From: Ephemerocybe angulata
Taxonomy: Eukaryota; Basidiomycota; Agaricomycetes; Agaricales; Psathyrellaceae
DNA length: 64,000 nucleotides
Direction: 5' to 3'
Assembly: GCA_013368325.1 (NCBI GenBank)
Contig: JAACJK010000001.1
Coordinates: 1,984,001 to 2,048,000 of the forward strand
How positions within the stretch are numbered: position 1 is the stretch's first letter; every line of letters starts with the position of its first letter. Below, one piece after another: positions 13,081-44,683 of the stretch. Below the pieces are notes generated by a model. That model searched no databases, was not told the DNA's origin, and was given only the letters and a program-made list of their open reading frames with translations. The position numbers were made by a program, and so were the translations under genes.

Positions 13081-13915
13081 AGTTATGGCTAAGGAATAAT
13101 GATTGCAAATAGATACAATGCTAGAATGGCCTCAATACAATGAGGAACTTTAATGATGGGCGACGAAATCTTTTAGCTGGCGACAAGATCTTTGCTGGTA
13201 CTTTAACATCATTGCGGCAAAATCATCATTGTTTGCAATCATTGTAAACTAGCCTTTGCAATCATTATCTACTGGCTATACTGCTTATAGCAAGATCAAT
13301 AGAAATTGATTGATTGATGGGATGATTATATAACCACCAAAAAGCCAATTTTGGACCTCACTCTCTTTATATTCTTTCCTCTCAGCTCAGCAATTGATAA
13401 ATATAGACTCACAGGCCCCTATATCCTCCCACCAAATACCCAGCAGGAAAGACCCAGGCAGAGAGGGGACTTGGCTCAAAAAACTCCTAAGTTCCAATGA
13501 TTGTAAATATACCTTCTTATGATGTCAAACAGTGCAATGATGTCAAAGAGTCTAATGATGTTAAACATCAGTCTAATGATGTTAAACAGCCAGAATAATG
13601 ATGTCAAATAGTCTAATGATGTTAAACAGTCAGCCTAATGATGCCAAATAGTCTAATGATGTTAAACAGTCAGCCTAATAATGTCAAATAGTCTAATGAT
13701 GTTAAACAGTTCAATAATGTTAAACAGTTTAATGATGTCAAATAGTTTAATGATGTCAAACAATGATGTCAAATAGTATAATGATGTCAAATGGTGTAAT
13801 GACGTCAAATAATGCAATGAGTGGGAATATATCTGTTTAGCATCATTAAAGTTCCTCATTGTATTGAGGCCATTCTAGCATTGTATCTATTTAAAATCAT
13901 TAGGGAAGCCATAAC
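13081..13915. mobile_element. 835-bp MITE inserted in LINE-A ORF1
   Basis: Terminal inverted repeats of about 75 bp: 13082-13158 begins GTTATGGCT and is the near-exact reverse complement of 13841-13915, which ends AGCCATAAC. Both contain the block AGATACAATGCTAGAATGG. There is no transposase. The interior is AT-rich and carries a minisatellite. The superfamily is undetermined; the 4-bp duplication and TIR sequence do not point clearly to one. Confidence 0.9.
13515..13825. repeat. minisatellite inside the MITE
   Basis: About a dozen imperfect copies of an approximately 18-bp unit, TAATGATGTCAAATAGTC or TAATGATGTTAAACAGTC, form a tandem array with occasional longer-period repeats (GTCAGCCTAATGATG). 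Confidence 0.85.
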
Positions 13916-18210: not shown

Positions 18211-19417
18211 TGATGCGATGCGCGGAGAAAAGACACAAACGATGACAATCATTTGCAACCAACCAACCACACAAACACAAAGGCCGAGTTCGTTGGAAGA
18301 GAGCAGCGTGGCCGGAGGGTACAATTCTCAACGGTTACACACCACACAAAACCAACTCCAAGAAGAGACTACGCTCGTGAGAGGCATAGGCAAGTCTATT
18401 TAACTAAGCGGACTGAGGAAGTAGTATGTCTCGACTTAGTAAGCAAAGCTTTCCAGTTTCCGTTTCACGAATCCTCAAAAGCCGACGCGGCGTAATGAAA
18501 GAGACACAAAGTACGATTGAGAGAGAGAGATTAAATCTGAAGTATACAAGCTAGAGAAACTAAGTGCTACGCGGTTTTACTTTTATAGTGTGACCCCCTT
18601 GGTCACAGTCACACCGCCTACGATTTTCCTTCAATTTTCTAGGGTGCTGAGTCGTGCGGTCGCGAGGCTTGAGTCGGTTGTTGCTTGGTTTCGCGCTAAG
18701 TTGGACGCGGCGCAGCATGCCGAGGATGCTGCTCCGTTATTGATGACCCTATTTTCCTTTTATGGTGACGTGGGCTTATCCCTCTCGCGCTTGGACTCTC
18801 CGTTGTGGAGTTCCCTTGCATTTCAAGGGACTCACCCCTGTTATTCCTGTTTATCCTTTTCCGTTTGTTGTCGGACAGCCTGGGGCTGACGAGACTGCCT
18901 CGCGTGAAATGCGTAAGTCTGAAGCCGCCCAAGCCGAGATTCGGGTTTTACCGACGTGGTCAGGAAACTCCAAGTGCCGCGGGTGCCGTTGCTCCTGCTG
19001 CCTAGTATCCCGGCGCTGCCTTGCCTTTCCTTGCTCGATTGAGCGGGGATCCTTTGTTTGAGAATCCAGACAGCCTGACTCGCTATCCGACTCGGCAGGT
19101 GTGGTACCCTTGGATGGCGAGGAGGGGTTGTTGTTGCTGGCGCCCTAAGTGTTTCGCTCGCACCAGGACTCTAAGACCTTTCGTACACGACTTGTCAAAC
19201 CGCTCAGTTACCCTGAGGCGGTTTCAGTACTAATCCGTCTTACTAGTGATCACCAGTATCCCCTACTCAAGCGGCGTCTGAAGTGCTCCCTTTTGTCTCA
19301 ACCCAGGTTCTGATCTTGGAGGCCGATGTAAGCGGTGTAGTACTTAGTGCTTGAGTCAGTGCTACGACCTTCACACATACGACCGTAAAACCGCGAAAAT
19401 AGTCCACGGTCATATCA
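18211..19417 (-). repeat. Gypsy 3' LTR (complete)
   Basis: 1207 bp; in element sense it begins TGATATGACC and ends CGCATCGCATCA. Colinear with the solo LTR at 1618-2704 and with the two pieces at 31056-31562 (inverted) and 31958-32644. Confidence 0.93.
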
Positions 19418-19430
19418 TCTCCCCCAAACT
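19418..19430 (-). promoter_or_regulatory. polypurine tract upstream of the 3' LTR
   Basis: In element sense AGTTTGGGGGAGA directly precedes the LTR: the position and composition of the plus-strand primer. The same 12-mer recurs at 23568-23579 and a shorter version at 22516-22525. Confidence 0.8.
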
Positions 19431-20065
19431 AGGTCTCGACTGTCCCCAGTCGGATGTGCGGCGTGCACGGTCTCCATTTCCAGCTTGATTTGGCGCGGCA
19501 GCCGAGCAACTGCTCCCGCTTCCTCGGCTACCGACGTGCGCTTGTTTCGCCCGGGCGCTTAGCCTTCTGCTTCTTTCCTAATTTCACAAGTCCCATTTAG
19601 CCGGCGCGAGTGATTCTGTCAGAACCGCTCAAGCCCAACTTCTGTTTCCCTGCTAATTTGGCCAGCGTGGCTCGGAAAGAAGCGGGTCCGGTGTTTAAAC
19701 ACGTCCCGGCTTCTTTCCTAGTTCTGGGCGGTTTAAGCGCCTTGTTTTGAACTCTCGTCGAACTCTTCTCCCTTAGCGTTCTTCTTACCCAGTTCGTGGC
19801 TCGAAACATACGCCGTTCTATGTCAGAGTTGGCTCTGACATGAGAGGTTCTTCCTTTTCCATTCTGGTTCCTACGCAGTGTCGGTTCTAATGTCGCCGTT
19901 TCGAACGAGGGTCGAACTTGCCGTTTAGCGCGCTTCTTCCCAAGTTCCGGCTAGACATACAGGCCGCTTCTTTCTTGTCATAGGTATGTTTCCTAGTTCC
20001 TCTTCCTTTTGAGCTGCTTATTACGATCCCATCGCGATGAGGCTTTGTAGAGGAGGGGCGAAAGC
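19431..20065 (+). promoter_or_regulatory. upstream region of the antisense gene pair, with a perfect hairpin
   Basis: 635 bp without an ORF. A 9-bp perfect stem with loop TTGG lies at 19820-19841 (ATGTCAGAG / CTCTGACAT). The region also has repeated pyrimidine-rich TTCTTTCCTA-like blocks. It ends at a TATA box and is the presumed promoter of the gene at 20112. Confidence 0.5.
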
Positions 20066-20072
20066 TATAAAA
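20066..20072 (+). promoter_or_regulatory. TATA box of antisense gene 1
   Basis: TATAAAA lies 40 bp upstream of the ATG at 20112, a spacing that leaves a short 5' UTR. Confidence 0.65.
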
Positions 20073-20267
20073 GCCGTTTCAACGCGTGAGTTTAAGACCA
20101 GTTTTCTCAACATGGATTCTCTCGCAACCCGCTTCCCTACTCTCTACTCTGCCTCTCGCGCCATCCAACCCTACTGCTGCACCGGAGGCAGCGGCGTTCC
20201 ACCTGGTAAGACCAATCGCAAGCGCGGCATCATGAAGCACCACCTTGAAAGCATGGTTCATGAGATG

Positions 20268-20322
20268 GTAAGTCGGTTTCCCTTTGTTTACAGATCCCTG
20301 CTGATGCTGCTCCATGCGTTAG
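20268..20322 (+). other. intron 1 of antisense gene 1
   Basis: 55 bp, GTAAGT...TTAG with CTGAT branch match; phase 0. Confidence 0.7.
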
Positions 20323-20553
20323 GCTGCAGCCGCTGCGGACTTCGATCTCGGGGAGGACCCCATCTTCGAATGTTTTCGTCAGCACGTCTCTCGCCTCTGG
20401 CTAGCACTCGATGGGTCATCATACTCGAACCGCCTGGCCCTCCCTTTGTTCTGGTGGCTCGAAGCCAATCCCCTGCCCCGAGAGAGCTTCCTCGGGTTTC
20501 CAGGTCCTGACCCCGCTCCACCAGTCCTCGCCGGTGCCGCTCGGAGCCCCTCC

Positions 20554-20612
20554 GTAAGTCCCTGTTGCTTCTCCTTTTTCCGATTTTCGATCTGACTTAT
20601 GGGGTTTCACAG
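20554..20612 (+). other. intron 2 of antisense gene 1
   Basis: 59 bp, GTAAGT...ACAG with CTGAC branch match; phase 0. Confidence 0.75.
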
Positions 20613-21470
20613 GTCTCAGATCTCATTTTTCCTTTCAAGCTTGAAGAGACCGATAGTTCACCAAACCAAAGTCTGTTGTCTTTCGGTCCCCCTCATGACT
20701 TTGCTGACGGCGGCCTTGCACCACCACCTCCACCGCCTGGATTCTCCTCTTGACCATCATTCCTCTACGACGCCCCTGCCTGGTTTCCGCTGCGTGACGC
20801 CGCGTATGACTCGTTAGTGGCCGACACCGCTGCTGTGTCCAGGCTTCGACAGTTCATCGAGGTGCCAAGTCGGGTTCGCCCTCCCACCGGGGAGAGTGGA
20901 CCTGTAGCGGGGCCCTCCAATGTCCTCACGTCGCCAGCCACACCCATCAAGCAGGCTCAGGAGCCGCGCTTATCTACAGCGGGTTCGTCCCCTCAGCAAG
21001 CCATCTCTATCCCTTCCGACTCGCCTCCGCCGCCCAAGAAGCGCAAGACCGACGATTCGAAGGAGAGGAAGAAGCGCGAGAAGGGTAAGGGTCGTGCTGG
21101 AGCGGGTCCCTCAGGCGAGGTGCCAGAGACTCCGGTCAAGACGGTAGGAGTGACGCCGCACGAGGGAATGTGCAAGCACGCCATGTACTTGTTCCGCCCT
21201 GACGACACATTCCACCCAGCTGGTATCACCCCGCCCGACATCCTCCTTCCTTACCCCAACAACTTCAAGAAGAGGCTCGTTGATCCGGATGGGAACGAGC
21301 TGCCAAACGGGCACTGGGCGTATGGTGCCGAGAAGAACCTGACCGACGAGAACCCGGCGACGATCAGGGAGGACGGGGCTACGAAGATGTATCGGGAAGG
21401 TCCCTTGACTGACGCCGCCCCGTTCTTCAAGACCCTCACCAAGCCGGCGGTTCAGAACCCCGAATCTCGC

Positions 21471-21527
21471 GTAAGTCATTCCGTTTTTCTGTCCCATTCT
21501 TTTTCTTACTCCCTGTTATGTTGATAG
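21471..21527 (+). other. intron 3 of antisense gene 1
   Basis: 57 bp, GTAAGT...ATAG; phase 0. It joins two segments whose frames are both open only when it is removed. Confidence 0.7.
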
Positions 21528-21711
21528 CACCGCTTCGCCTCTGCTACCTACGCGGGTCGAGGTATCGACTGTACAGGCGGAGACCTCTTGGGAGGTACTC
21601 TCTGCAACCAGTGTGCTGCTACCAAGGCCGCCTGCTGTGGGTACCAGTTCACGGCGCCCCGTCCCGTCCGAGATGGGTCCCTTTCCCTGATAGACGAGCT
21701 CGCACCGCGTC

Positions 21712-21762
21712 GTAAGTCCAATTTATTTCCTCCTTTCTTATTAATTTCTAACTATTTTCTAG
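21712..21762 (+). other. intron 4 of antisense gene 1
   Basis: 51 bp, GTAAGT...CTAG with TCTAAC branch match; phase 1, completed by the GA at the next exon start. Confidence 0.75.
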
Positions 21763-22421
21763 GAGTCCAAACCCTGGCCCGCCTGATCATGCAGGAGCTG
21801 GGGTCCGCTCGAGTCCTCTACGCTTTGTACGAGGACGCTGAGGAGCGGGCTCTGGCATACGCGAAGGATCTGTCCAACAGGTTCCGACGCAACGCCAATA
21901 GCTCCTGGCACAACCACTTGCGCCAGTTGGTAGGCGACGCGGTGGATCTCGACGAGTTGACCGAGATTATCGCATTCACCGAAGCTGACCCGCTTACCCA
22001 GGTGGAGTTCCACCCTCGCACCCAGAACACCCTTCTGACTAGGGTCACGGACGAGTCCATCACCATCGATGCCCGTGCTCGTGTTGGAACCGCCTCGCCT
22101 TCCCAAGACGTGCTCGAGCACGACTTGCCTCCCGCCCCGCCTGCACCTCGTCAGTTCAATCCTCGAAGCGCGAGGATCATGCTCAACCATCAGGCGGCGC
22201 GACAGGAGAAGCGTGAGCAGCAGGCAGCCCAGGGTAAGGGCAAGGGGAAGGAGAAGGTACGAGAGTCGGTCGACAAGAGGATCTACATCGGGGGAGACCT
22301 GACGTCAGACGAAGAAGAGAAGGAGGAGGAGGAGGCCGCTCCTGCCAGCGTCGACGAGGAGGGCGATACCGAGGTCGAGAGTGAGAATGGTGAGTCCGGG
22401 GAGCACGAGGTTGTTGGGTAG

Positions 22422-22984
22422 AGGATGCGTTAGTTTGTAGTTGTTTGTTGTACGCTGCCTCCCCTTTTCTCGTTCCCTTTCTTCGGTAAGTTCCACTCTT
22501 TTTCTCGTTACGTGTCCCCCAAACTAACTCCTTACTTCGTAGTCGACCTCGTCCCGTGTTCCCTTGTACGTTTGTGTCGGACTTCGCTTTCCGTTTATTC
22601 CTTTATATTTGTATCCTATCATCCTTGTACCCTTATCTTGTAGTCCTGTTTTTGTAGTTCCATTGTCTTGTCCTGTTTGTTACCCAATTACCACTTGTCT
22701 TGCTCCAATCTTAGTGTGTGACCTTATGTGAGCCTCTGAATCTGACTTGGTAAGGTGTCTCCGGATCTGAGTCAATCACCATGTTAGTGCCGACTTGTAT
22801 CCTTTTGAGTTGGAGTTGTATTGGGAATATTGATCGGGTTGAGCTCCAGAAGAATTCAAACCCACGTCCCCCTCCCACAAACTCAGACTGATCGTCCCCG
22901 GTCAGAGTCTCACACCGAGACACACCCCGCTCGAGAAACCCATGGAATATTCACAACTTGGAGCAGGCGGGGTCTCACCCGCGA
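22422..22984 (+). promoter_or_regulatory. intergenic region between the two antisense genes
   Basis: 560 bp without an ORF of note, T-rich and pyrimidine-rich, containing CCCCCAAACT at 22516-22525. Presumed to hold the 3' UTR of gene 1 and the promoter of gene 2. Confidence 0.5.
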
Positions 22985-22991
22985 TATAAAA
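22985..22991 (+). promoter_or_regulatory. TATA box of antisense gene 2
   Basis: TATAAAA 45 bp upstream of ATG 23036, nearly the same spacing as in gene 1. Confidence 0.65.
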
Positions 22992-23035
22992 CACAAAGCC
23001 AGGCCGTCTGGCCCTGTCAAACCGCCTCAGATAAC

Positions 23036-24620
23036 ATGGCCAATTCCAGTAGTACAACCGCCGCGCGTTCAAGCACATCTGTTATCACCAAAGGGTATGA
23101 CACCCTATCGTCGACAACCAAATACTTGAAGCGGCAGCAAGCCTTCGAGGCGCGTGATGACCCGGCGTTGAGAGAGTACGCTACGCGCATGATGGCAGGC
23201 CGTACGTTCCGCACTCCCGTTCCCACACCGCTCGTCTTGACGTGACCCTGTAGCTGGCATGGATCGAGTCCGAGTCCGCCACCCTGCGCGAATCCTACGT
23301 TGGAAAGTTTCTCACCAAGGTGAACAACTTCCTAACAGAATTCAACACAGCCAGTCAGCAGGCCGGCATGGAGAATCACTTCCCCCGCGCCTTCAAGGAT
23401 CGCATCCAGCTGCTGCGCGAGCGAAGCCAAGCTGCTCAGTCCGGTCAGACCTACTTTGATTCTACCATGACAGACCTCGGGCCGCTCCCTGACTTTGGGC
23501 CAAGCAACGCAGGCCGCCCAACCCAGAAGCGCATGGTGAGCGCCTATTTGATTGCCGGTTAAGCGCCCTCCCCCAAACTGACTCATTACTCCCCAGTTGA
23601 GCGAGTGGGCCACTGGCAACCGCGCAGCACCCACAACTCGCCCTGCTCCACCCCGTACGCACTTCTCCATGTACCGCCTTATGCAGGTATACGCTGACGA
23701 CACTGTTATGACCAGAGTCGGTCCCAGCGCCGCGCGACACCGCGCACACTCGCTCAGTCCTGGCGGAGGCAGGGAAGGTGACCGCGTCGATGCCCTCCGC
23801 GTCCTTGGACGAGGAGGAACTCCACCAAGCCTCCGCTTTACTCTCCGCACATATGAACGTGGCGCTGTTCGAGATCGAGCAGCTACTCGCAATCCACGCC
23901 TTACTTCGACGCTCGTGGGAGGATACTCAGACGCGCCAACAGACGCTCCAAGCTGCCCGCGAGGCGAACGAAGCCGCAGCCATGAACGCTGCCATCGCCG
24001 CCACCGCTCAGCAGATGCAGCAAGAGCAGCGCGAGGCGAAGGCCGCGCCAGGTCCTGCCGTAGAGGCGAAGAAGGAGATGAAGAAGCAGGGGAAGGTGGT
24101 CGCGAGCGGGGAGATTTCGGCGAAGGAGAAGAAACGTCGTGGGAAGGAGGAGAAGAAGAAGGAGGTACAGAAAGGTTCCAAGACCGAGAAAGAGGTGACG
24201 GAGAAGAAGGAGCAACAGAAGGAGGTCAAGAAGGGGGAAGTTCAGGAAACCTCCAAGCAGGAGGTCACCTGAACCACGCGGAGCAACAAGACCGCGGAGA
24301 CGAAGGAAGAGACGTCGAAGCCGGGCGCATGGACGCGCCGCGACCCCATCCCCAAGACTGCTTGGTCCCCGTCGAAGAAGGTACAGCCCGCCACACCCGC
24401 ACGCGGCGCCGTGGTCGGTGTACCTGCCTCCTCCAGTGAGACCCGCGCTCGTACCGTCGCTGAACCATCCGAGCCCGCCCTGCATGAAGCAGATGAAGTG
24501 GTATCAATCCCCACGTCCGAAGATGAAGAGGCGATGTCTGTTGACGAACCCGAAGGGTCAGTGTCGGTGTACGAGGATGGCAGCTCGCCTGCTGAAGAAA
24601 GCGACGAGGCATCCGCCTAA
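23036..24620 (+). pseudogene. antisense accessory gene 2: coiled-coil Lys/Glu-rich protein
   Basis: Predicted exons: 23036-23201, 23254-23535, 23597-23654, 23716-24620. Introns are 52, 61 and 61 bp with GTACGT or GTGAGC donors and CTGAC-type branch points. Phases match for introns 2 and 3; at intron 1 the exons are out of phase by one base, so either the junction is slightly different or this copy has an indel. An in-frame TGA at 24270-24272 is followed by open frame to TAA 24618-24620. The product begins Ser/Thr-rich, has an Ala/Gln/Glu-rich helical region with heptad-like spacing, then a long Lys/Glu-rich stretch (probable coiled coil) and an acidic Ser/Glu C-terminus. No family is recognised. 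The stop overlaps the integrase stop on the other strand. Confidence 0.7.
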
Positions 24621-25984
24621 TCTTCCTCCGCATTTTCCTCCAAGGTTTGTAGTTTCCCCATTCCCATAAAATTAAAATCCCTGTGTTCCCCTTGTTCCCC
24701 ATCATCCAAAGATAGTTCCATTTCTTCCAGTGTATTATTATCAATATCTATGTTTTCCATGAAGTCCTTTCCCAGAGGTATAGCCTTCCTGGGGTAGTAA
24801 GGAACCACCCTAAAAGCGCCAACCTTGCTCTGATGCACCGCTCCATTGAGTTCCGCCAAGATATACGCGCTGCCCAGGTTTCGTGATACCACAACCATGG
24901 GACCCAGATAACGCGGCTTCATCTTCTTATTCAGGCTCAACTCAATGTTTGTGTTACACATTAGTACCAAGTCACCCCGTTTGAAATTCCAGTTCTTGAT
25001 AGTAGCCCTATTAGCTTCCGCGTAGGTGGCGACACGACGCCGTTTCTCCTCGCTGATCCTGGTCATGACCGTACTGACGTAAGTCTGATGTTTAGCCAGA
25101 GCCTTAGCCCGGGAGGCTATCAAGTCCTCCGTAGACATCATACCCATGGGCGGCTCAGTCAACCAAGTAGCTTCCTGTACGTCAAGCGGCATGACAGGTT
25201 CCGCGCTGGTCAGGAGAAAGAAAGGCGAGCATCCCAGGCGCTTTCGGATGGTAATACGGTCTGCCCACATAACATGGTGGAAGAACCAATACCACTTACT
25301 TGTGTCACCCCCCGTGGCTTTGTACAGGCTCTGGCGGACATCCCAATGAGGCCGCTCGATCTTCCCGTTTGCCCTCGAGTTGTATCCTGAGATAGCAATT
25401 TTCTTAATCCCATACTTCTTCTCGAGCCATTCCACTGCCGCAATCATGGGCTTCCCGTTGTCAGTGACAATTTCCCTTAGGCAGCCCCATCGACAGATAA
25501 TGTCCTCGAAAAGCCAGGCGCCTACAGCCACCACACTTTCCTTTCGGAGCGGCCTCCCTTCCATCCAAGATGTCAAATGGTCTCGCCCATGCACGATGTA
25601 CCCACAGCCGTTGCTGGCCGGGCTCATGTGCATGACATTGATGTGCACCGTCTGGAACACCGACGGGGTTTCAGTCACAATCGGAGGGATCTTAACTAGG
25701 AGCTTCTGGCGCTGTTGACAGAGGAGACACGTCTTAACGTAGTTTTCAACGTCCCGATCCAGCTCTGGCCACCATACCCGCTTCAAAAGTAATCCCTTGG
25801 TAGCGAAGGTCCCGCGGTGCCCCATAGCATCGTGGGCGGCTTTAAGCATATACATGCGTTTCTCTGAGCCCACGACCAACTGATGCATACCGTACCCATT
25901 TTCTTTCCTGAAGAGTCGACCATCTTTCCCCAAGAAGAAGTGTTGCGCCGCCCGTTTGAACTTATCCCATTCCCCTTTTTCCAC
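24617..25984 (-). pseudogene. Gypsy integrase
   Basis: 455 codons. An N-terminal zinc-binding region (AHDAMGHRG ... CLLC, HHCC type) precedes the catalytic core. The second and third acidic residues are visible in VTDNGKP (about residue 173) and NGKIERP (about 208). The first is not: where family members carry Asp in a VH(I/V)D context, this copy reads VHINVM (about residue 113), an Asp-to-Asn change explained by one G-to-A transition. Strand transfer activity should be lost. A basic C-terminal domain follows. It is in the same frame as RT-RNase H, separated by TGA at 25990-25988 and at 26074-26072, so originally one polyprotein. Confidence 0.9.
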
Positions 25985-26071
25985 ACCTCATGGCATTCGC
26001 GTCCTGTCTTTTTGCAAGAACCAGAGACGAATTATAGGTAACCAAGCATCCATGCGCAATGCGGACGCCGT

Positions 26072-28303
26072 TCACCATTCAGAAGGGTAATCCTCATCTG
26101 AATGTTCCGGCAGCACCTCTACGTTTACGAGGATATCGCTAGTTGTGGGACCTTGTGGGTCCCTGGTGCACCTATTGGCCTCTAACATATTGATGGCTGC
26201 CATCTGAGTGGCGTCACTATGAAAACCCGTTTCTACCCAAGTTTCGGACGCCTCCTCTTCACAAATCTCCTGTAGATAACCTCCCCTCATATCAATGAGG
26301 TGCTTGAAGTCTTCAAACTCGAGCGGCTCAGGATCCTCAGGGTTAGGCTTGGAGAATGTGATGGGTTCATCCGGGTCTATGTCCATTATTTCCTCGAACT
26401 CCTTTCTAGGCAGGTCGCCTGGTTGTGCACGCTGCCTGGAGAGACCGTCCGCTGCGAACGTCTTTCCTGGCACATGTTGTAACTTGAACTGGAACTTCCG
26501 AACTTGTTCGATCCAACGGTTAATGGTGGCATTCGGTCCCAACTGAGGATTCTTGAGCATCCCCTGGATATACTGCGCATCCGTCTCCACGATGAGCGGC
26601 CTAGCCATGATGAGCATGTACTCATTTTCCTTGAGTGCTCTCACCAAGCCATAGAGTTCTTGCTTGGGCTGAGAGTAGTTAGCTTCAGGCGGCTTCAGCA
26701 GGGTCGACCCGAACTTAGCATAATGCCATTTCTTGGGGTCAGTTGGGTCCTGCTGACTGATGTACCATCCAACTGCAATGTACAAGGTGTCTACTGAGAG
26801 CTTGACTGGCATCCCAGAAGTGACATCCAGTGGTTTTAATACTGGCGCCTCGCTTACCGCCGTTTTCAGGTCCTCCATTGCTGCGTCCTGCTCAGGCCCC
26901 CACTCGAACCTTATCTCCTTTTTCGTGAGCTTCTGGATGGCGCTAGCCCGTGTGGCATATCCCGGAATAAAGATCCTGAACGTGCCAACGGTTCCTAGGA
27001 ATGCTCTGACATCCGAAACGTCGCAACAAGGACCCCATCTGGAGATTACTCCTACGTGGTCCTCAGTTGGTTTCCTGCCCTCGTATGAGCACAAGTGCCC
27101 TACCACTGTGAATTCTGGCACACACAGGAACGTTTTCTTTCCAGAAAACATACCCCCGCAATACTTCATCCTTTGTATAATCCTATTGACCACTGTTAAA
27201 TGTTCCCAAACAAACCTTCGAATCCCAGGATGCTCGGGAATAGTTTCGAAGCCGCCTCCTGGCAGTTCGTACCGCGTTTTCGGTCCCCTTACTGGCACAT
27301 CGTCTACGAACGGCTCAGTCCATTCCGGGATCTCAGGTTGAAGGATAGTAGTTACATCTTCGTGGAAGATGGGTACAGAGTTAGTCCAGCCCATGGGTAG
27401 CGTTACAAGCCGCATGGCTCCAAACGGTGTTTGGAAAGTGGTCAGGTCCTGATACCACTCATCCAGAATCCGCTCGTCATATCCTATGTACAAGTCCATG
27501 GTGGTACCGCATGCATACCCTGCGAACCTGGCCGCCAATTCCTCGGTGAGAGGTGGGAGGCCTGAGTGTGCAATGGTTACAGCGTTAAGCGGCTCCAAAG
27601 AATGTACGAGGCGTAGACTTTTTCCATCCTTCTTGAGAACGCAGAACCAACAGCTCCTATATGAGGATGACGAGGGTTCATACACCCCAGAATCTATTTT
27701 GCCTTTGATGATATAGCAGATTTGTGAGAACAGGAAAGGAGGGATGGGGATTTTCTTCAGGACCCAGGGTTCGTGCGGAACAGTAGGGATTTTTACTGGA
27801 GGGAAGAAGTCCTCACGGAACTTGCCCCGCTCAGACTCTTCCCATGCAAAAGCCTCGTTTTGTTCAACCATTAGATGGTGCGCCAGCTTCCTTTCTTCAT
27901 CCGTCCAGAACCCTGGATGGGCTTTATCGAACATCTCCATCCTTTCTTGCGTGTACCGCCCCTTGGGTGTGAACTCAGGCGTGTGCGTAGGCAATTCGGG
28001 CATCCCTGCCAAGGGATCTCCCTTAATTTTGCGTACCACTTGGAACTCCTCCGGAACTATTCCATATACTGGCCTTACTTTCTTGTCAACTGGTTTGTAC
28101 TTGGTTCCTTTGGAAACTCCTTTCACCCCGCCTGCTTTGTTCGGATTACCCGAAGGTTGTGACTCGGCGCTTGTTTTAGCGCCCGTCTGGAGGTATTGTT
28201 CGAACACGTCTTTTGCCTTTTGATCATCCGTTTCCTTTAATGCCTGTTGTAGATATATGGTTTTCAACTCATTTTCTGTGAAGCCCTCTTTCTGACCCGG
28301 CAC
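26072..28303 (-). pseudogene. Gypsy reverse transcriptase - RNase H
   Basis: 743 codons. RT motifs in order: fingers (SYRSCWFCVLKKDGKSLRLV), motif A with TTMDLY (catalytic Asp about residue 268), TPFGAMRLVTLPMGWTNS, and the FVDD active site (about residue 332). RNase H follows (LSVDTLYIAVGWYISQ ... KQELYGLVRAL ... ETDAQYI ... HVPGKTFAADGLSR). The frame opens at GTG 28303, not a real start; upstream it was joined to protease in another frame, so an indel separates them. The TGA at 26074-26072 interrupts the link to integrase. Confidence 0.92.
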
Positions 28304-28367
28304 TGCGAGGCCTGAGAGCCGCTCTCGTCCATTTCCACCAACAGTGCGACCTCTCCTTGATCATCGA

Positions 28368-28751
28368 TCAAATCCTCGAGAGCCGAAAATGCTCTCCCGC
28401 TTCAGCCTCGAACTGCGCAGGAATCTTCCCTCTAGGGTAGGAAGGGATAGTGATTCTGCGCTCGTTGTTCGGGTCAGTCAGCGTGATGGTATGGCTACCG
28501 TCTGCGTGGCAGGCCGATACTGCCCTCATGACTGCTAAGAACGGCCTTCCCAGTAAGAAGCGGTACGCAGCATTGCGTACAACATGAAGCTGCACATATG
28601 CTACCATGCCGTTTCCGCAATCTATGGGCACATTCCTAGCCAATCCTAAAGAGGAAGCCGTGGTCTTGTTAGAGGACTGAAGTCCAATCACAAAGTCCGG
28701 ATCCCAGCCAATGCCCAACTTCAATGCTGACTCCTCACTGCACAAACACAC
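28368..28751 (-). pseudogene. Gypsy aspartic protease region
   Basis: Reading in the frame that includes this segment, the active-site-like loop FDEGSQV is followed by the hydrophobic/flap-type pattern and RFLLGRPFLAV near the C-terminal side, as in retroviral-type proteases of basidiomycete Gypsy elements (DEG replacing the canonical DSG/DTG). It is out of frame with both the upstream ORF (28721-29662) and the RT ORF, so the polyprotein carries at least two frameshifts here. Confidence 0.75.
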
Positions 28752-29662
28752 TTGAGAGCCTTCATCAAAGATGGCCTCTCCATGTTTCGCGTTGTTGATG
28801 CGGGAAAGAAAGCGTGAATGGGTAGTGATTCTGAAGCGGTGATCAGGGGTTTGCCCCTCTGCCGAGCGGGGTCGTCGGTCTGCAGGAAGATTTCAACCGG
28901 GTCGGGGATAATGAGTGACCCGTCGGGTATGCGTTCCACGCCGTCTGCTTGATACGCCTCTCCGAGGGGTAAATCCTCAGGTCCCAACTGCACAAAAGTT
29001 TCCACCATTGGTGTAGCCTCCATACTGTTTTCCGAACCGGTCTCCCCTAGGAATATGCCTAGCAACTCCTTTTCAGCCTCTTCCTCCGTCAAGCCTAAGT
29101 TCAAGTTGATCTCCATCAGTTCCTCTGATAACGCCGCTTGAAGTCTTCTCGCGGCGTCTCGTTCGGATTCTGACTTTGCCCCAGCCGGTCTCCTTTTCTT
29201 CATGATTTCTTGTGCCGCCGTGCGGGCAGCTGGAGACAGAGACAAGAGGTCCTGGATGGTTACAGGGTAAGTCATTTTAAAGACCTCGCTGATCACCTCC
29301 ACAACCCTTGCTTTGTCAATATTGCTAGTCCGCTTGGGCTGTACCCCTTTTTCTACCTGTCTAGGCAGCTTGGGATCAGGTCGCGCCCCAGGCGCTTCCT
29401 CCCTCCTTTTCGCCGGGACGGGCTGCATCCGTAGAGGGGGAACATCGACATAGGGGAACATCTTCGGCCTAGGCGGCGAGATGATTTCCAAGCTGTGTGG
29501 TTCCAGCCTCTGTTTTGTATTGTTTTTGGGTTTTCCTATTTTTCTGACTACCTCTTCTTCTTCTTCATCTTCGCTCTCTGTTTCTGTTTCTACTGAAGCT
29601 GCCCGGGGCTTACTTCGACTCGCTCGAGGAGGATTCGGGGGTCCCTTCCTCGAGCTCTTCAA
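28721..29662 (-). pseudogene. Gypsy gag-pol linker region
   Basis: 313 codons, charged and proline-rich, with a region predicted to be helical (VEVISEVFKMTYPVTIQDLL) and no enzymatic motif. It lies between gag and protease and overlaps the gag stop. The frame step relative to gag happens at a run of five T (minus GATTTTTGA, about 29661-29665): either a one-base loss in a T run or a -1 frameshift site. The first codon in this frame is TTG, so it was not a separate gene. Confidence 0.75.
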
Positions 29663-31055
29663 AAATCCCGTTCCTGGTTGGCTCGCGTGTTAATCGTGTA
29701 TTGCTCAATGGCACCAACCCGCTTGCCCAGATCTTGGACCGCTAAGAGAACATCACGAGCTGTGGGTTCAGGGGGAGGCAGCGCAGCTGGGGCCGGAGTC
29801 TCCTTTCCCATCGCAGACAAGATTTGGTTGGTCATGCCTGCGATAGTCTGGTGGAAGACTTCATGGGTCACCAACTCGTCATCCCACTCCTGTCCATAGG
29901 CGTCGTAATAAGGGGTGTGTTCTTCCTGATAATTGACCGATGCGCCTCCCGCCCAGGCCTGATCTACTCTTTGTTTCATAGTAGATCCGTCTGTGTGACG
30001 AGAGCGCACAAAGGTATTATTCACGTAGATAGGACCCCTCGGAATCTGTTGAGTAAACTTCCCGGCTGCCCTATCCTTTTCTATTTCTGCGCACTCGCCT
30101 ATGCCATGACCTGCCACCCCGCAGTAGAAGCACGAGAAGCTAGCACCAGGCGGCTTAGGATACATGCCTGGTTTCATCGCACCGTTTGCCCCTCCTGGAG
30201 GTGCATACAGCGGCTTCTGAGCTTGGACGTAGGTCTGACGAGCCGCTCCAGTTTCTAGGGCGCTTAGCTTGGCGCTTAATTTCTGAATTTCTGTTTTGAA
30301 AGTATCCATGCCTGCAAAGACATCCTGGAAATGAGAAGAGAAGTCTTCCTGCTTGACTTCAGCTTCACGAGCTACTGACATCTTGCCGCTAGGGCTCGAC
30401 CTCTTATACGTAGCTTGTGACTCTTCCTCGGCGAGAAGTCCAAATGGTCCATCTGCCGCAGCGTCAACCAGTTTAGTGGCATGTTCCATGACTTCCATGA
30501 TTCCCCAAGGATCTTCCAAGGTGCGACCATCGGCAACCCCTTTGGTCTCCAACCTTTCCCTTAACACTTCCCGGAAGCTGGGCTTCAGACATTCCAAGAA
30601 CCGCTTGACCAAGTCACAGTTCGACACCAGCGGCGGCACCTCTTCGATGAGCAGCTTCGCCTCTGCTTTGAACCCCAACATAAAGTCGTAATAGCCAGGC
30701 CGCTCATCTTTTCCAATGGGACGGACGATTAACGCAGCACAGAGCTTTTCAAGCCGTTCTATGGATCCTCCTTTATAGCGCACAGTCTTAGGTAGGGTAC
30801 TTTCCAGGGCCTTTCTCCAGTTTGCCCAACTAAAGGGAGCTTGTCCTCCCATCAGCTGTGCCCATTTTCTAGCAATATCCAAGTCTAGGTAGGCCAATGC
30901 TTGTTCTACCACTTCCTGGTCCTTGTCTAAGATCCCGGCCGCCTTGGCTGCCACTTCTACGCCGTTCAAGAACTTGATCGCGCTTGCGGGCGAAGCGGGA
31001 TCATAAGTAGGCCTGTTAGTGGAGAAGAGACTAGGCATCTTATCCTTCCTACTCC
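29659..31055 (-). pseudogene. Gypsy gag (main part)
   Basis: The 459-codon frame (first Met at 31038) encodes a helical capsid-type domain of the retrotransposon gag kind in the first ~200 residues and a zinc knuckle CFYC-GVAG-H-GIGE-C (CX2CX4HX4C) near residue 305. Upstream of 31055 the gene is broken by an inversion; the matching N-terminal coding sequence, ending SSNSGNA, sits on the plus strand at 31921-31957 and joins in frame as ...GNA|RSRKDKMPSLF. Gag packages the element RNA. It ends at a TGA in a T run, overlapping the next frame. Confidence 0.88.
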
Positions 31056-31562
31056 AGCATCCTCGGCATGCTGCGCCGCGTCCAACTTAGCGCGAAACCA
31101 AGCAACAACCGACTCAAGCCTCGCGACCGCACGACTCAGCACCCTAGAAAATTGAAGGAAAATCGTAGGCGGTGTGACTGTGACCAAGGGGGTCACACTA
31201 TAAAAGTAAAACCGCGTAGCACTTAGTTTCTCTAGCTTGTATACTTCAGATTTAATCTCTCTCTCTCAATCGTACTTTGTGTCTCTTTCATTGCGCCACG
31301 TCAGCTTTTGAGGATTCGTGAAACGGAAACTGGATGAGTCGAGTCATACTACTTCCTCAGTCTGCTTAGTTAAATAGACTTGCCTACGCCTCTCACGAGC
31401 GTAGTCTCTTCTTGGAGTTGGTTTTGTGTGGTGTGTAACCATCGAGAATTGTACCCTCCGGCCACGCCGCTCTCTTCCAACGAACTCGGCCTTTGTGTTT
31501 GTGTGGTTGGTTGGTTGCAAACGATTGTCATTGTTTGTGTCTTTTCTCCGCGCATCGCATCA
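31056..31562 (-). repeat. Gypsy 5' LTR, inverted piece
   Basis: 507 bp matching the reverse complement of 18211-18730, with about 13 bp less around the position equivalent to 18440. Confidence 0.9.
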
Positions 31563-31957
31563 AATTGGAGCCCACCGCGAGGGAGGTGAAGAATCAGTTT
31601 CACACCTCCTCTCCAACAAAGTAGAACAGGAAAAGGGGTTGCTTTGAGCAAAAGCAACAAAAACCAACACACCTACTTCAAGCGGGTCGAAACCCGTAGC
31701 TACTAGGCAAACTAGGAACTCTCAGTCAGCTGGTGCAGTCGACGTTAGACAGTATCCCAGCACGAGAAAAGTAAAGGCAGCAAAGAGTCGAAGAGCAGAC
31801 ACTCCAGACTCGACAGAACAGGAAACTTTCGAAGAGGCTCTTGAACAATTTGGGAGCCCGCTTACCAAATTATCTTCAGAATCGGAAATAGAATCGGAAC
31901 TCTTGTTACCAAAGAGAAAAATGGGTGATTCAGACAGTAGCAACTCGGGCAATGCCA
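31563..31957 (+). other. Gypsy leader with primer-binding site and gag 5' coding sequence
   Basis: Three bases after the LTR end, TGGAGCCCACCGCGAG (31566-31581) begins with TGG and could pair with a tRNA 3' end (tRNA ending GGTGGGCTCCA); this is the expected primer-binding site. From about 31648 a frame is open for over 100 codons, rich in Ser/Thr/Glu, with its only ATG at 31921 and ending at the inversion junction in phase with gag at 31055. Confidence 0.75.
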
Positions 31958-32644
31958 GCTCCGTTATTGATGACCCTATTTTCCTTTTATGGTGACGCGG
32001 GCTTATCCCTCTCGCGCTTGGACTCTCCGTTGTGGAGTTCCCTTGCATTTCAAGGGACTCACCCCTGTTATTCCTGTTTATCCTTTTCCGTTTGTTGTCG
32101 GACAGCCTGGGGCTGACGAGACTGCCTCGCGTGAAATGCGCAAGTCTGAAGCCGCCCAAGCCGAGATTCGGGTTTTACCGACGCGGTCGGGAAACTCCAA
32201 GTGCCGCGGGTGCCATTGCTCCTGCTGCCTGGTATCCCTGCGCTGCCTTGCCTTTCCTTGCTCTATTGAGCGGGGATCCTTTGTTTGAGAATCCAGACGG
32301 CCTGACTCGCTATCCGACTCGGCAGGTGTGGTACCCTTGGATGGCGAGGAGGGGTTGTTGTTGCTGGCGCCCTAAGTGTTTCGCTCGCACCAGGACTCTA
32401 AGACCTTTCGTACACGACTTGTCAAACCGCTCAGTTACCCTGAGGCGGTTTCAGTACTAATCCGTCTTACTAGTGATCACCAGTATCCCCTACTCAAGCG
32501 GCGTCTGAAGTGCTCCCTTTTGTCTCAACCCAGGTTCTGATCTTGGAGGCCGATGTAAGCGGTGTAGTACTTAGTGCTCGAGTCAGTGCTACGACCTTTG
32601 CACATACGACCGTAAAACCGCGAAAATAGTCCACAGTCATATCA
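31958..32644 (-). repeat. Gypsy 5' LTR, non-inverted piece
   Basis: Colinear with 18731-19417; differences are few. In element sense it starts with TGATATGAC. Confidence 0.92.
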
Positions 32645-33529: not shown

Positions 33530-33730
33530 ACCATTCTGCCAGGGCCGTCTTCACTGCCCGATCTGTGGGGATACTCACTCCCAGAATGAGCATCGTCATC
33601 AGTGCAGCAGTTGCAAGGGCAATGCCAAAGCCAACCCTCCAGTTGTCCCTACCCCTCCAGGTGCAGATTGCCCTCATTCGTGGAAGTGCCTGGCCTGCCG
33701 CAAGGACGGACACAGAGCCTCTGACTGTAA

Positions 33731-34753
33731 GTGTCCCTTCTGGACCACTGCTTTGACTATGCCTGGGCTGTGGCCAAGTATTCTGAGGTACGTGCTCATC
33801 AACAGCGCAGCCGCACTAGCACTCACACCCTTAGCTCGACAGACAGCAAGATTAGGGTTTTGAGTTTCAATATCGCTAAGAACTATGCGTACTTAGATAT
33901 TATTCAGGATCGTCTGAAGGATGAATTCAATATTTTGTTTATCCAAGAACCCCCTTGGCAGACTATAAGACAAGCACCCTCCACGGTAAGCAAGGAGGGA
34001 GCCGACGTTATTGGAGCACCCCACCACCCCAACTGGCTGTGTATGGCAAGACTCCCTGAGCCTGGTTCAAGACCCCGTGTTCTGACCTATATTTCTAACA
34101 GGCTAGCGCACTGGCGCCCTGCCTACCGTCGAGACCTCCTTGATGACCGCGACATCATGATCGTGTCCCTGTTTGGGCGTGATCGGGTGCTGCACTTTAT
34201 GAACGTCTACTCAGATGACCATCACCGCACCATCAAGCTTCTTGCTGAGAAGGCCGACGACCTGCCTGCCCTATCCTACATGGGCGGCGACTTTAACTGT
34301 CACTCTAGGGAGTGGGACCCACGGGTCTTACACCACAGGCTGACAGCTATCCTCCTACTGGAGACAGCAGCCAGACTGGGCTTGGAACTGACCAAGTTCA
34401 CTAACCCGGGCCCGACATATGTGTCGCGCGCCGATCCCAATGTTCACTCAGTCATTGACTTGGTGTTTGTGCCTTGCTCCGAGGTGCTCGCATCACAGCC
34501 ATCACGGCTGGGTGATCCAGAGCTGATCCCATCAGGGTCACCTGATCCCATAACCAGGGGCCCATCAGACCATTATCCGGTGGCCTGTAGCATTGTGCAC
34601 CGCCAATCTCCCCCAGTGGCAAGGCGGCGCACCATCAAACCTGACAGCGATGAGGAGGCCGAGTTCGTCTCAGAGCTGGCAGGAGTTATTGGGGGCTTAA
34701 GCAGCACCCTGTTACCACTGCCGACGAGGTGGAGGACTTTGCGCAGGCAATAG
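33731..34753 (+). pseudogene. LINE-B ORF2 endonuclease domain (copy 1)
   Basis: APE-type endonuclease motifs FIQEPPW, GGDFNC, SVIDLVFV and PSDHYPV are all present (active centre intact by eye). The frame is lost at about 34695-34753 because one G is missing compared with the copies at 42375-44240 and 49908-53807. The ORF1 tail normally preceding it is partly present, with zinc knuckle CLACRKDGHRASDCKC. Confidence 0.85.
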
Positions 34754-35466
34754 CCGGCGCGTGCAACGAGGCATGGCTACGCCATTCCAAGGAATTCAAG
34801 GTGAAACCGCACTCGAAGGAGTGGTGGGATGCCGGATGTGACGCCGCATTGGCTGAATACAGGGCCGATCAGACCCTGGCCGGCTACAAGGCATTAAGAA
34901 CTGCTACCAAGGCAGCCAAGCGCAAGTTCTTTGATGCTCGCATCAAGGAGGTTGCAGAAACCAACAAGCGCCCCTGGGACCTCATGGCCTGGGTCAAGGA
35001 GCGCAAGAACCCGCCATGCGAGGCTATCCAGTTTAATGGGCAGCCTTGTCACGAGCTGAGCGACCTCTGGGATGCCCTGCACAGCACCTACAATGCCGCC
35101 TCTGACAGGGCGGTAGATGTATCTATCCTGAACGAGCTCCCTCAGGAGCCTGTCCGTGACTGGCGAGGGTTCTCGGTTCTTCAGCTCACCCAAGCAGTAC
35201 AAGCGTGCTCAGCACACTCCGCACCAGGGCCGGACCATGTTATGTGGAGGCACCTGAAGCGCATTCTGGCTCATCCCGATTGTGTGGAGGCCTTCGTTTC
35301 TTTGGCAGACAGCTGTATTCGTACAGGCCGGTGGCCAAAACATTTCAAAGAGTCGCTCTCTGTGGTTATTCCAAAACCCGGGAAGCCCTCCTACGATACA
35401 CCCAAGGCTTTCCGGCCGATCGTGCTTCTCAACACGATTTGGAAGCTCATTGAGAAGATGATCTGA
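34729..35466 (+). pseudogene. LINE-B ORF2 linker and RT N-terminus (copy 1)
   Basis: Continues the previous fragment after the lost base; encodes the linker helix region and first RT blocks (IPKPGKPSYDTPKAFRPIVLLN). It ends at TGA where the intact copies read TCA (ATGATCTCA), a C-to-G transversion. Confidence 0.85.
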
Positions 35467-35870
35467 AATAGGTTCCAGTTCGAGATGATCAAGTATGACT
35501 TGGTCGACCCGAACCAGACGGGTGGAGTGCGACAGCGCTCCACTGAAGACGCCGGCCTCGTCCTCACACACTTAGTGCGTACGGGCTGTGCATAGGGGCA
35601 GGACACGAGTGTGATCGCGTTTGATCTGGCTCAGTTCTTCCCCTCAATCAACCACCAGTTCCTTCTGGCGTGCAGAAGCTGGGTTTCCACCCCTCGGTGG
35701 TACCTTCTTCGAGTCCTACTTGGTAGGGAGGGAAACACGCTATGCGTGGAACAACTTCGTATCAGAACCGCTGCTGGCAGACGTGGGGGTGGGGCAAGGG
35801 TTGGCTCTCTCTCCTGTTCTGTCTGCAATAGTCATCGCTCCTATTATGAAGCTGTATCGGAGACTGGAAC

Positions 35871-37573
35871 ACAGCAAGTCAGAGCTCTTCCACTTCACTT
35901 GGAAGAGGACAGGCTTTAACCGGCCCCTCGACCTTGGATTTGCGCCCTTTACCGGGGCGACACCACTGCGACCGAAGACCTATTGGAGGTACCTCGGCTT
36001 CTTCTTTGACCGCAAGCTCACATTCACGGAGCACCTGCGGTTCTATACCACCAAGGCCCTCACAACCGTTATGGCAATGAGGATGCTGGGCAACTCGAAC
36101 CGGGGCCTTACTCCGAAACACAAGCGTACCCTATACTGTGCATGCGTGATGCCTATCGCGACGTACGGGCACAGGCTCTGGTACTTTGAGGGTGCTAAGA
36201 ACGTCGGTGTCCTTAAGCAACTCACATCCATGCAGCGTAAAGCAGCATGCTGGATCACCGGTGCCTTCCGCACCTCCCCCACCGGTGGGGTCGAGTCCCT
36301 GGCAGGACTCGCCCCCATTCGGCTTCACCTTCAGAAGCTGTCCAAAAGAGCGATCTTTAGGACAGCCACTCTGTCCGACACACACCCCCTGCGAGCGTTG
36401 CTGGGGGCTGAATTCAGGGGCACAGCCGTGCCCAATTACCGTGCTGCGATCTGGTTGCCGAGGCATGGGCGCCGGAGGACTGTTCGCGACACTATAACCC
36501 AAACCAGCGCCCAGCTGGGAGAACTCACAGAGGTATTTTCTCCATGTGCGGAAGAGAATGCCCCTGGATCTCGGCTTATGGACTTGTACTCGGAACGAGT
36601 GGAGTTCAATGTCTACGCGGGGAAGGGCTTGGAAGGCTTGGCTGTGCGCCGGGCTGAGCTCGACCTCTTGTATTGGCAAGCTTCGGATGAGCTGCACACC
36701 GCGTGCTTTGGGACGGACTGCTCCATCCCGAGGAACGAACGCCACCAGGCTGCCTCTGCGTACGTGATGACGCAAGGCGACCGGGACGACAAGACCTCTG
36801 CCCGATGGGTAGCAGGACGGGTTCTCTCTGCGGATGCAGAGCTCTTTGCAATCCAAGCGGCTGTTGCTTCTGCTGTTCAGCGGAACGACTGTCGCAAGAT
36901 TATCATCTTCACTGACCACATCGCCTCAGCGAAGCGGGCAGTGGACCCCTCTGTCCACTCTGGACAGGCTCACTCCCTTTCAGTCTGCAAGGCCCTCGCG
37001 GCATGGTTTGCCCTCTCCGTGGACCATTGCATTGAATTCGTTCAGGTCCCCTCCAAACTGGAGTGGGCCCTGCAGCACGACGCGCACCTGCATGCGCGTG
37101 GGTTGCCGGCGGTCCCTGTGGGGGCACGCCCAGCCACATCGCTTGACTATGTGCGCCGGAAGGTCACAGAGTCTGCTATCAGCTCCTGGCACACCCAGTT
37201 CCTCGCTGAGGGGTACAGGGGGAGCCAGTTCCTACAGCTCCACGCCCCTGACGGGTCAATCCTCCAGCCAGCGTACGCCAAGGGCGGCACTTGGCTTAAT
37301 TCTGTGGCTGACGATAATCACTTGTGCGCACGGGTGTGCAGGTGCATTCTCAACCACGCCCCAATCGGCGAGTATTACTCTCGGTTCAACATCCCGGAGG
37401 AACACTCCTGCACGTGCGGTGCGCCCACCCAGACACGCCGCCACCTCTTTGAAGGGTGCCCCGACCTTCCTGCCACCCAGCGGACTCCGAGATTGCTCAA
37501 GGAGCTTGTTGGCTACCTTGTCGCGAACCCGACCTCATTCGGATTCCGGCCTGCCTCCGAGGGGGTCGGATGA
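35871..37573 (+). pseudogene. LINE-B ORF2 C-terminal part (thumb, RNase H, zinc knuckle)
   Basis: Open to a TGA after ...PASEGVG. Contains the thumb region, RNase H (DAELFAIQAAVASA, IIIFTDHIASA) and the terminal CTCG...HLFEGC cluster. The RT catalytic block (LISYVDD) is absent from this fragment. The frame runs on from the host copy at 35621, which would give a 650-codon fusion without the active site. Confidence 0.85.
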
Positions 37574-38108
37574 CAGGCTTGGGCAGGCCTGGGCATGTCC
37601 AGGGTGTTCTCCAGTGCCAATCCTTAAGCGGGACGGGCAGGTGTGGGTGTGGGTGGGGCCCCCGTGCCGGGCTGACCTGGGGGGACGGTTGCTCACGCGA
37701 CCTCTTCCTGGGGCGGGCTGGTGCTGGGTCTGGGGAGCTGTGCAGTTAGTAGCTTCGGCGAAACCGGCGGCATCTTGGACTTGGCTTGGAGGGTTCCTGC
37801 GTGCATCTGTGCCTTGCTATTCCGGCGTTGGTGGTGCCAGCGGGTTCCAAAGGCGTGCTCGGGCTTCGCCCTCGCGGCCAATCGGCCTCTCCTTTCTGCC
37901 TACACATTGCACTCCATGACGTGCGGACTAGGCTTCGCTGGACCCCGATCGTCCCTCAGGGCCGACCGCGGTCTGTATCTCGCCCAGGGGCTGCGTTATG
38001 CCTTGTCTCTTTTCCCTCAAATGTCGATTACGCTGTAGTAGTTTACGACCGGTCTGCCTCTGCGCCCCGGAATATCAAATAGGATTTAAAAAAAAAAAAA
38101 AAAAAAAA
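35871..38108 (+). mobile_element. LINE-B insertion 2: 5'-truncated copy nested in copy 1
   Basis: Starts abruptly inside ORF2, just after the YVDD region (ACAGCAAGTC), and runs through RNase H, the 3' UTR and the A-tail (ends 38108). GACTGGAAC precedes it (35862-35870) and follows its poly(A) (38109-38117), consistent with a 9-bp target duplication in copy 1. Confidence 0.8.
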
Positions 38109-41674: not shown

Positions 41675-41743
41675 GACTGGAACGGGGCCTTGGCTCTGTT
41701 CTCATCTCCTATGTCGACGACGGGACTCTTATAGTCCAGTCTC
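41675..41743 (+). mobile_element. LINE-B tandem unit 3, only 69 bp, ending at the inversion point
   Basis: Third occurrence of GACTGGAACGGGG...; it stops within the YVDD coding region at AGTCCAGTCTC, where inverted LINE-B begins. Confidence 0.9.
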
Positions 41744-42374
41744 TGTGAGTTGCTTAAGGACACCGACGTTCTTAGCACCCTCAAAGTACCAGAGCCTGTG
41801 CCCGTACGTCGCGATAGGCATCACGCATGCACGGTATAGGGTACGCTTGTGTTTCGGAGTAAGGCCCCGGTTCGAGTTGCCCAGCATCCTCATTGCCATA
41901 ACGGTTGTGAGGGCCTTGGTGGTATAGAACCGCAGGTGCTCCGTGAATGTGAGCTTGCGGTCAAAGAAGAAGCCGAGGTACCTCCAATAGGTCTTCGGTC
42001 GCAGTGGTGTCGCCCCGGTAAAGGGCGCAAATCCAAGGTCGAGGGGCCGGTTAAAGCCTGTCCTCTTCCAAGTGAAGTGGAAGAGCTCTGACTTGCTGTG
42101 TTCCAGTCTCCGATACAGCTTCATAATAGGAGCGATGACTATTGCAGACAGAACAGGAGAGAGAGCCAACCCTTGCCCCACCCCCACGTCTGCCAGCAGC
42201 GGTTCTGATACGAAGTTGTTCCACGCATAGCGTGTTTCCCTCCCTACCAAGTAGGACTCGAAGAAGGTACCACCGAGGGGTGGAAACCCAGCTTCTGCAC
42301 GCCAGAAGGAACTGGTGGTTGATTGAGGGGAAGAACTGAGCCAGATCAAACGCGATCACACTCGTGTCCTGCCC

Positions 42375-44671: not shown

Positions 44672-44683
44672 TGGCGAGGCCTC

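Follow-up and report, generated by a model that had tools for sequence, protein, structure and literature searches.

Antisense, multi-intron genes under purifying selection between integrase and the 3′ LTR of a Ty3/Gypsy retrotransposon in the mushroom Ephemerocybe angulata

HBZ of human T-cell leukemia virus type 1 (HTLV-1) is a spliced antisense gene with a nuclear product, located at the 3′ end of a long terminal repeat (LTR) element. VANDAL, a transposon of Arabidopsis, is not an LTR element. Its anti-silencing protein, VANC, acts on the element's own noncoding DNA (PMC10398659). Antisense open reading frames (aORFs) of the aORF-3R type are found in plant Ty3/Gypsy elements, for example as gene23 of maize Grande, and in rice RIRE2 and Silene Retand (PMC7264820, PMC11963269; the latter also names HBZ); gene23 possesses a promoter of its own and encodes a nuclear product, and the TRP28 product of Retand is thought to be capable of DNA binding. 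CERV, encoded by Cer1 of Caenorhabditis elegans, is a nuclear accessory protein, which is made from a spliced messenger RNA and is required for export of the genomic RNA (PMC10309623). Here, we describe two multi-intron genes, A and B, which lie antisense to gag-pol, between integrase and the 3′ LTR, in a Ty3/Gypsy retrotransposon of the mushroom Ephemerocybe angulata. The element lies in a stretch of 64,000 nucleotides (assembly GCA_013368325.1, contig JAACJK010000001.1, positions 1,984,001 to 2,048,000), referred to as the window, and all window positions are counted from its first letter.

Like the plant aORFs, A and B are antisense and occupy the interval between pol and the 3′ LTR. Unlike these, they are present in a fungal host, they form a tandem pair, A shows a Zn2Cys6-like cysteine spacing, and a Pfam scan (E≤1) finds no match to TRP28 (PF04195) in A, B or five products of sister elements. 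Each of A and B has several introns, whereas the word "intron" is absent from the main text of both plant papers (PMC7264820, PMC11963269). As to the promoter and nuclear product of gene23, the corresponding features seen in A and B are TATA boxes and basic stretches. With HBZ they share the antisense orientation, the location towards the 3′ LTR and, as predicted, splicing and a nuclear product; they differ from it in that their TATA boxes lie in the internal region, some 650 bp or more away from the LTR, in having four and three introns, and in the lack of a match of A or B to bZIP families (Pfam scan, E≤1). The likeness to VANC lies in fast divergence between families and, for the role proposed below for A and B only, in action on the element's own DNA; a tandem target motif was not found in this element. 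CERV is likewise an accessory protein of an LTR element made from a spliced messenger RNA, and the abstract of its description mentions no antisense arrangement. Among the titles and abstract openings screened, we saw none that describes protein-coding genes antisense to a fungal Gypsy element; one paper deals with noncoding RNA made antisense to mildew transposons (PMC10648671), and the main text of a survey of fungal LTR elements does not contain the word "antisense" (PMC3248453). Relative to the literature consulted, what is new is that the host is a fungus, that each gene has several introns, that the genes form a pair and that A has the zinc-cluster spacing.

Gene A extends from an ATG at 20112 to a stop codon at 22419–22421 (Table 1), and its five exons of 156, 231, 858, 184 and 659 nt all join in phase across four introns, which measure 51–59 bp in the window copy and have phases 0, 0, 0 and 1. 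Gene B extends from an ATG at 23036 to a stop codon at 24618–24620 and has three introns of 52–61 bp, with phases of 0, 0 and 1 in intact copies as calculated from exon lengths. Both genes are broken in the window. Gene A has a single internal TGA at 20751 and has lost two of its six clustered cysteines; exon 1 of gene B is 166 nt long versus 177 nt in 10/10 other copies, owing to an 11-bp deletion, and a TGA at 24270 interrupts the reading frame that the intact copies use. The product of gene A has 697 aa in copies L013 and L014, and the intact product of gene B has 473 aa (475 aa in L017). The independently annotated gene DFP72DRAFT_843330 shares the four junctions of gene A, as judged by eye, and differs from it inside exons 2 and 3. 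An initial annotation of the window had proposed two such TATA-preceded, multi-intron plus-strand genes at this site, and their structure is confirmed, with frames that are selected among copies. The six introns that it listed by coordinate are all GT-AG, a seventh lies at 23202–23253 in gene B, and the one phase problem that it met is explained by the 11-bp deletion in exon 1 of gene B. Its description of a Cys-clustered protein with a basic, nuclear-signal-like stretch agrees with the six-Cys cluster and KKRK of A. TATAAAA does precede each ATG, but at 46 bp (A) and 51 bp (B) instead of the proposed 40–45 bp.

A DNA search of the genome (58.7 Mb in 232 contigs) using positions 21000–22400 as query places all or part of the A-B module at a minimum of 11 sites including the window, one of them split over two rows; copy counts are lower bounds. 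Eight of the 10 other copies, one of which (L018) has undergone an internal deletion, align over approximately 18.2–27.9 kb; L017 and the rearranged copy L011 do not include the left end. The aligned stretches are 93–96% identical. The start of gene A is present in nine copies (the window, L009, L010, L012–L016 and L018), and under a fixed exon model the gene is open in six of them (L010, L012, L013, L014, L015 and L016, with one donor of L015 lost by a GT to AT change), the other three being the window (stop), L009 (two one-base losses) and L018 (deletion). Gene B is open in 8/11 copies (L009, L011, L012, L013, L014, L015, L017 and L018) and not in the window, L010 (a one-base shift near the end) or L016 (one stop). 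Over the 11 copies, GT is present in 73/74 donors and AG in 74/74 acceptors, and every copy that reaches across an intron of A or B retains that intron. L013 and L014 (G000:C152:1009101-1034068) are nearly identical, lie 15.2 kb apart on the same contig and probably form a tandem array sharing an LTR.

Divergence rates were computed over nine copies, with the window and L014 left out; L014 is also excluded from the A and B dN/dS (ratio of nonsynonymous to synonymous rates) and from the indel rates but included in the dN/dS of pol, and the close pairs L009/L010 and L012/L018 mean that the copies are not independent in these figures. Divergence at codon positions 1, 2 and 3 is 2.1, 1.6 and 5.5% in gene A and 1.3, 0.8 and 5.6% in gene B, with 4.0% in the introns of A, 6.9% in those of B and 6.6% in the A-B spacer. 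Position 3 is the most variable in 9/9 exons, at least 2.3-fold above either other position. Nei-Gojobori dN/dS is 0.207 for A, 0.107 for B and 0.052 for part of pol (nine copies), and the corresponding dS values of 0.078, 0.084 and 0.089 are close and therefore point to a shared history. Distinct frame-breaking indels relative to L013, counted in eight copies, number 2 in the A exons (0.96 per kb), 1 in the B exons (0.70), 15 in the spacer (25), 8 in the A introns (36) and 1 in the B introns (5.8), and in-frame exon indels number 4 in A and 1 in B. A and B are under purifying selection as proteins while their introns and spacer drift, and they are almost certainly genuine genes of the retrotransposon. 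An alternative is that the antisense RNA matters and not the protein, with convergent transcription limiting the element through double-stranded RNA or interference and the frames being incidental. The stop codon of pol (24617–24619) interleaves with that of gene B, so their transcripts would overlap, and a plant review suggests such a role as possible (PMC7264820); however, the protein-level selection (dN/dS 0.21 and 0.11), the scarcity of frame-breaking indels in exons and the drift of introns make this alternative unlikely. An RNA-level role may exist in addition to the role of the proteins. Likewise, A and B could serve copy-number control by repressing the element, as the antisense, spliced HBZ of HTLV-1 opposes Tax, and selection among copies is compatible with such self-limitation. 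Cheaters would easily lose a self-limiting gene, yet B is open in most copies and A in two-thirds of those with its start, and we regard repression as rather unlikely.

Two further observations concern the same region. Between the LTR and gene A (19420–20060), 643 noncoding alignment columns vary by 2.1%, similar to a piece of the LTR (2.05%) and far below the A-B spacer; promoter constraint or homogenisation between copies may be the cause. The window copy has 154 private substitutions over 19420–24620 relative to six other copies; C>T and G>A changes account for 85 of the 154, and 62 are located at CpG. This pattern resembles methylation decay, as would be expected of methylated copies, and is an indirect indication that the element may face silencing that it would have to counter.

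Relatives of the element were sought through its integrase, with 93 of 258 candidates scored. Among these, matches are found at 11 places of the element's own family, at 8 places with 66–69% identity, at 27 places near full length with 60–61% identity and at 7 places with 43–46% identity, besides fragments and a group at 25–28%. The region after integrase was read in 2/8, 1/27 and 1/7 of the three closer classes and in one member of the 25–28% group. Four sister loci (integrase 45–69% identical) bear antisense, intron-containing genes after integrase. In both L063 and L059 (69%), a single such gene lies ahead of the polypurine tract; it has a TATA box and is interrupted by four introns of phases 0, 0, 0 and 1 at codons 56/58, 117/119, 146/153 and 165/177, and the products, L063B and L059B, are 25–27% identical (E about 1e-18 to 1e-20). 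The introns of gene B in intact copies (phase 0 at codon 59, phase 0 at codon 153 and phase 1 at codon 172) match three of these four in position and phase, gene B being without the intron at 117/119. In a profile comparison, residues 36–124 of B align collinearly on 33–119 of P0005, a member of the sister B family, which by eye places the first intron of B at the same residue boundary and phase as in P0005. Ahead of the penultimate intron, the motif in L063B, L059B and B reads GTKRS, GTKRP and TQKRT. The L063B/L059B family includes 10 annotated E. angulata proteins, and RGTKR is invariant in all 10.

The 60–61% class, read at L060/L064, has two antisense genes in the same order as A and B. 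The B-like gene has five introns and open exons; the A-like gene, by eye, encodes KKIK, six cysteines spaced CX2CX8CX10CX2CX6C with a phase-1 intron soon after, and an acidic tail, and its frame from the likely ATG hits a stop in the copy read. In L061 (45%), the single antisense gene encodes 207 aa, has one intron and lies ahead of what by eye is a likely polypurine tract. In L065, the one copy read from the 27% group, the integrase has a chromodomain-like tail and a likely polypurine tract lies within the last codons of pol (by eye), so there is no room for an antisense gene. Antisense genes after integrase thus look like a feature of this element group, with B as the more general part, in what is a small sample. 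A relic at L062:1-2201 retains the 3′ part of an A-like gene together with the 5′ part of a B-like one, in which a first intron seems to be present, with no integrase match within 35 kb among the matches listed. L059:3727-4442 is nearly identical to the B-like gene of L060 by eye; another family's element, or a piece of one, lies directly beyond the LTR of L059.

These relatives bear on whether this family acquired the module from its host in a single capture event. Its multi-intron structure and TATA boxes resemble those of host genes, and transduction of cellular genes by LTR elements is discussed in PMC7264820, but such a capture is very unlikely given that the module is present at 11 sites, that its dS and that of pol are similar, and that L063 and L059, with an integrase 69% identical to that of the element, contain relatives of B with matching introns. 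The module is probably part of the element's own machinery and not captured host DNA; an ultimate, ancient origin of A and B from a host gene may nevertheless apply. The element-encoded accessory module of the initial annotation accordingly holds up through its presence, in whole or in part, at the same position in 10 further places, its purifying selection and the related B genes of two sister loci; other copies have conserved frames and the region is not a one-off host segment. Its idea that antisense orientation preserves the introns also fits, no copy spanning an intron lacking it. It recognised neither protein; A itself and relatives of B are already annotated in E. angulata as hypothetical proteins.

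The six cysteines of A (CX2CX6CX10CX2CX6C, residues 420–451) have a spacing found in 0/200,000 shuffles. This cluster fits the fungal Zn2Cys6 spacing, which we take to be CX2CX6CX5-12CX2CX6-8C (PF00172). A also has a nuclear-signal-like stretch, PPPPKKRK, with KKRK at residue 271, and an acidic tail with 24 Asp/Glu in the last 60 residues. The predicted model of the B family (P0005) consists of a helical bundle (1–122), a disordered linker with the RGTKR stretch, a long helix (196–244) of high confidence and a mostly disordered tail, with block-mean predicted local distance difference test (pLDDT) values of 73–95 over the bundle and long helix. The proteins might instead be structural or envelope-like, as the interval between pol and the 3′ LTR houses env-like genes in plant elements (PMC7264820); the antisense orientation, the basic nuclear-signal-like stretches and acidic tails, and the finding that none of six proteins contains a hydrophobic or membrane-like segment (the highest mean over 19 residues being 1.06) render this highly improbable. 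Protein searches required shared short words, and matches are stated among the limited number of proteins scored, so that relatives in other species may exist: A matches two E. angulata proteins among 7992, B has no match among 7954, and L063B and L059B together have 10 matches, all from E. angulata, among 7999. No relative of the integrase was found in viral contigs.

We propose that A and B would be transcribed from their own promoters opposite gag-pol, spliced and translated. The full-length RNA would carry their introns in antisense, where they would go unrecognised and be retained, and reverse transcription would restore them in working form; the introns would survive retrotransposition because they are antisense in the genomic RNA. 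The products would return to the nucleus and act on the LTR or chromatin of the element, with A as a Zn2Cys6-like DNA-binding protein that has a nuclear signal and an acidic tail and B as its helical or coiled-coil partner. Our first choice of function would be activation or de-silencing of the LTR, as by VANC for plant VANDALs, and another option would be support of the genomic RNA, as by CERV for Cer1; the leading rival roles would be self-limitation and export of RNA. We infer the expression, splicing, nuclear location, DNA binding and regulatory role of A and B from their sequences, and consider the proposal as a whole, i.e. antisense spliced genes with their own promoters and with introns kept by orientation, encoding nuclear element-specific regulators, to be moderately probable. 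A wider reading is offered tentatively and as a unit: an antisense multi-intron module of fast-evolving, self-specific nuclear factors could have persisted throughout a fungal Gypsy clade from a time before the families of the clade diverged, with its introns preserved solely by their reversed orientation in the genomic RNA, and its zinc-cluster protein and coiled-coil partner could switch on or de-silence the element's own LTR as a fungal LTR-element counterpart of VANC.

Several results weigh against these proposals. Zn_clus (PF00172) has no match to A at E≤1, and for this reason A is not filed as a Zn2Cys6 member. The predicted structure of A is uninterpretable (pLDDT 34), fold searches give a best E of 0.64 with no informative structural relative, and A, B and L063B/L059B have no relative outside E. 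angulata among the proteins scored. By sequence alone, B shows weak similarity to the B family of the sister loci (hhalign: P 0.009 and 4% probability), and neither the B-like gene of L060 nor the gene of L061 has a BLAST match to B. The A-like gene of L060 has CX8C where A has CX6C (by eye), and a profile comparison of A with one stretch of that gene finds no similarity. The copies read at 69% (2/8) carry only the B-like gene, so A is not universal. Finally, GGCGCTTA as a lead on the DNA target is post hoc.

The element that carries the genes is Ty3/Gypsy, as its pol, nearest to that of Ty3, has reverse transcriptase (RT)-RNase H followed by integrase and as it has a pair of LTRs and a polypurine tract. 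RT_RNaseH and Integrase_H2C2 exceed the Pfam cut-off and RVT_1 is under it; the best solved relatives of RT/RNase H are 4ol8 (E 8.9e-23) and Ty3 7q5b, and those of integrase are from prototype foamy virus (2.7e-11) and Ty3 (2e-7). The gag-like ORF has no match in a Pfam scan. The junction of polypurine tract and LTR, GGGGGAGA/TGAT, is also found in three sister loci (L059, L063 and L064). In the window copy, the leader and the terminal part of the 5′ LTR are contained in the inverted segment of about 900 bp (31055–31957), and because of the inversion this copy is not usable as a normal template. The two LTR parts split by the inversion are adjacent within the 3′ LTR in 8/10 other fetched copies, L011 and L017 having no match at the 3′ LTR region. 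By eye, ACGT(T) is found at each end of the element, which suggests a target-site duplication.

Table 1. Coordinates of the retrotransposon and its genes in the window
Feature	Position	Strand	Remarks
Ty3/Gypsy element	18211–32644		14.4 kb; gag-pol on minus
3′ LTR	18211–19417	minus	98.1% (683 bp) and 95.4% (522 bp) identical to 5′ LTR
Polypurine tract	19418–19425	minus	GGGGGAGA/TGAT on minus; adjoins 3′ LTR
Gene A TATA box	20066–20073	plus	TATAAAAG
Gene A	20112–22421	plus	five exons; antisense to gag-pol, between integrase and 3′ LTR
Gene A exons	20112–20267, 20323–20553, 20613–21470, 21528–21711, 21763–22421	plus	
Gene A exon 4	21528–21711	plus	six-Cys cluster CX2CX6CX10CX2CX6C
Gene B TATA box	22985–22992	plus	TATAAAAC
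Gene B	23036–24620	plus	four exons; antisense to gag-pol
Gene B exons	23036–23201, 23254–23535, 23597–23654, 23716–24620	plus	
Integrase part of pol	24617–25987	minus	Pfam and solved-structure relatives
RT/RNase H part of pol	26072–28360	minus	nearest solved relative Ty3
gag-like ORF	29659–31086	minus	CCHC-type stretch CFYCGVAGHGIGEC (by eye)
5′ LTR and leader	31055–32644	minus	about 31055–31957 inverted in window copy

Elsewhere in the window, 62-bp inverted repeats (97% complementary) at 13097–13902 flank an array of roughly 18-bp repeats of the AATGATGTCAAA type, which looks like a small non-autonomous element. By eye, several copies of endonuclease-RT elements resembling long interspersed nuclear elements lie in both orientations at 33700–45000 and 49500–53800, and Copia-like ORFs are present near 44–48 kb and 54.6 kb.

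Plant Gypsy elements were already known to carry accessory genes in antisense; A and B, with several introns each and paired in this family, add a second kingdom. Selection on A and B as proteins can be demonstrated by codon statistics, and the module provides a natural example of how orientation would keep introns through retrotransposition. What such genes do could be tested in mushrooms, and the case also carries a warning, since gene predictors enter element genes of this kind as hypothetical proteins, something that has already occurred in E. angulata.

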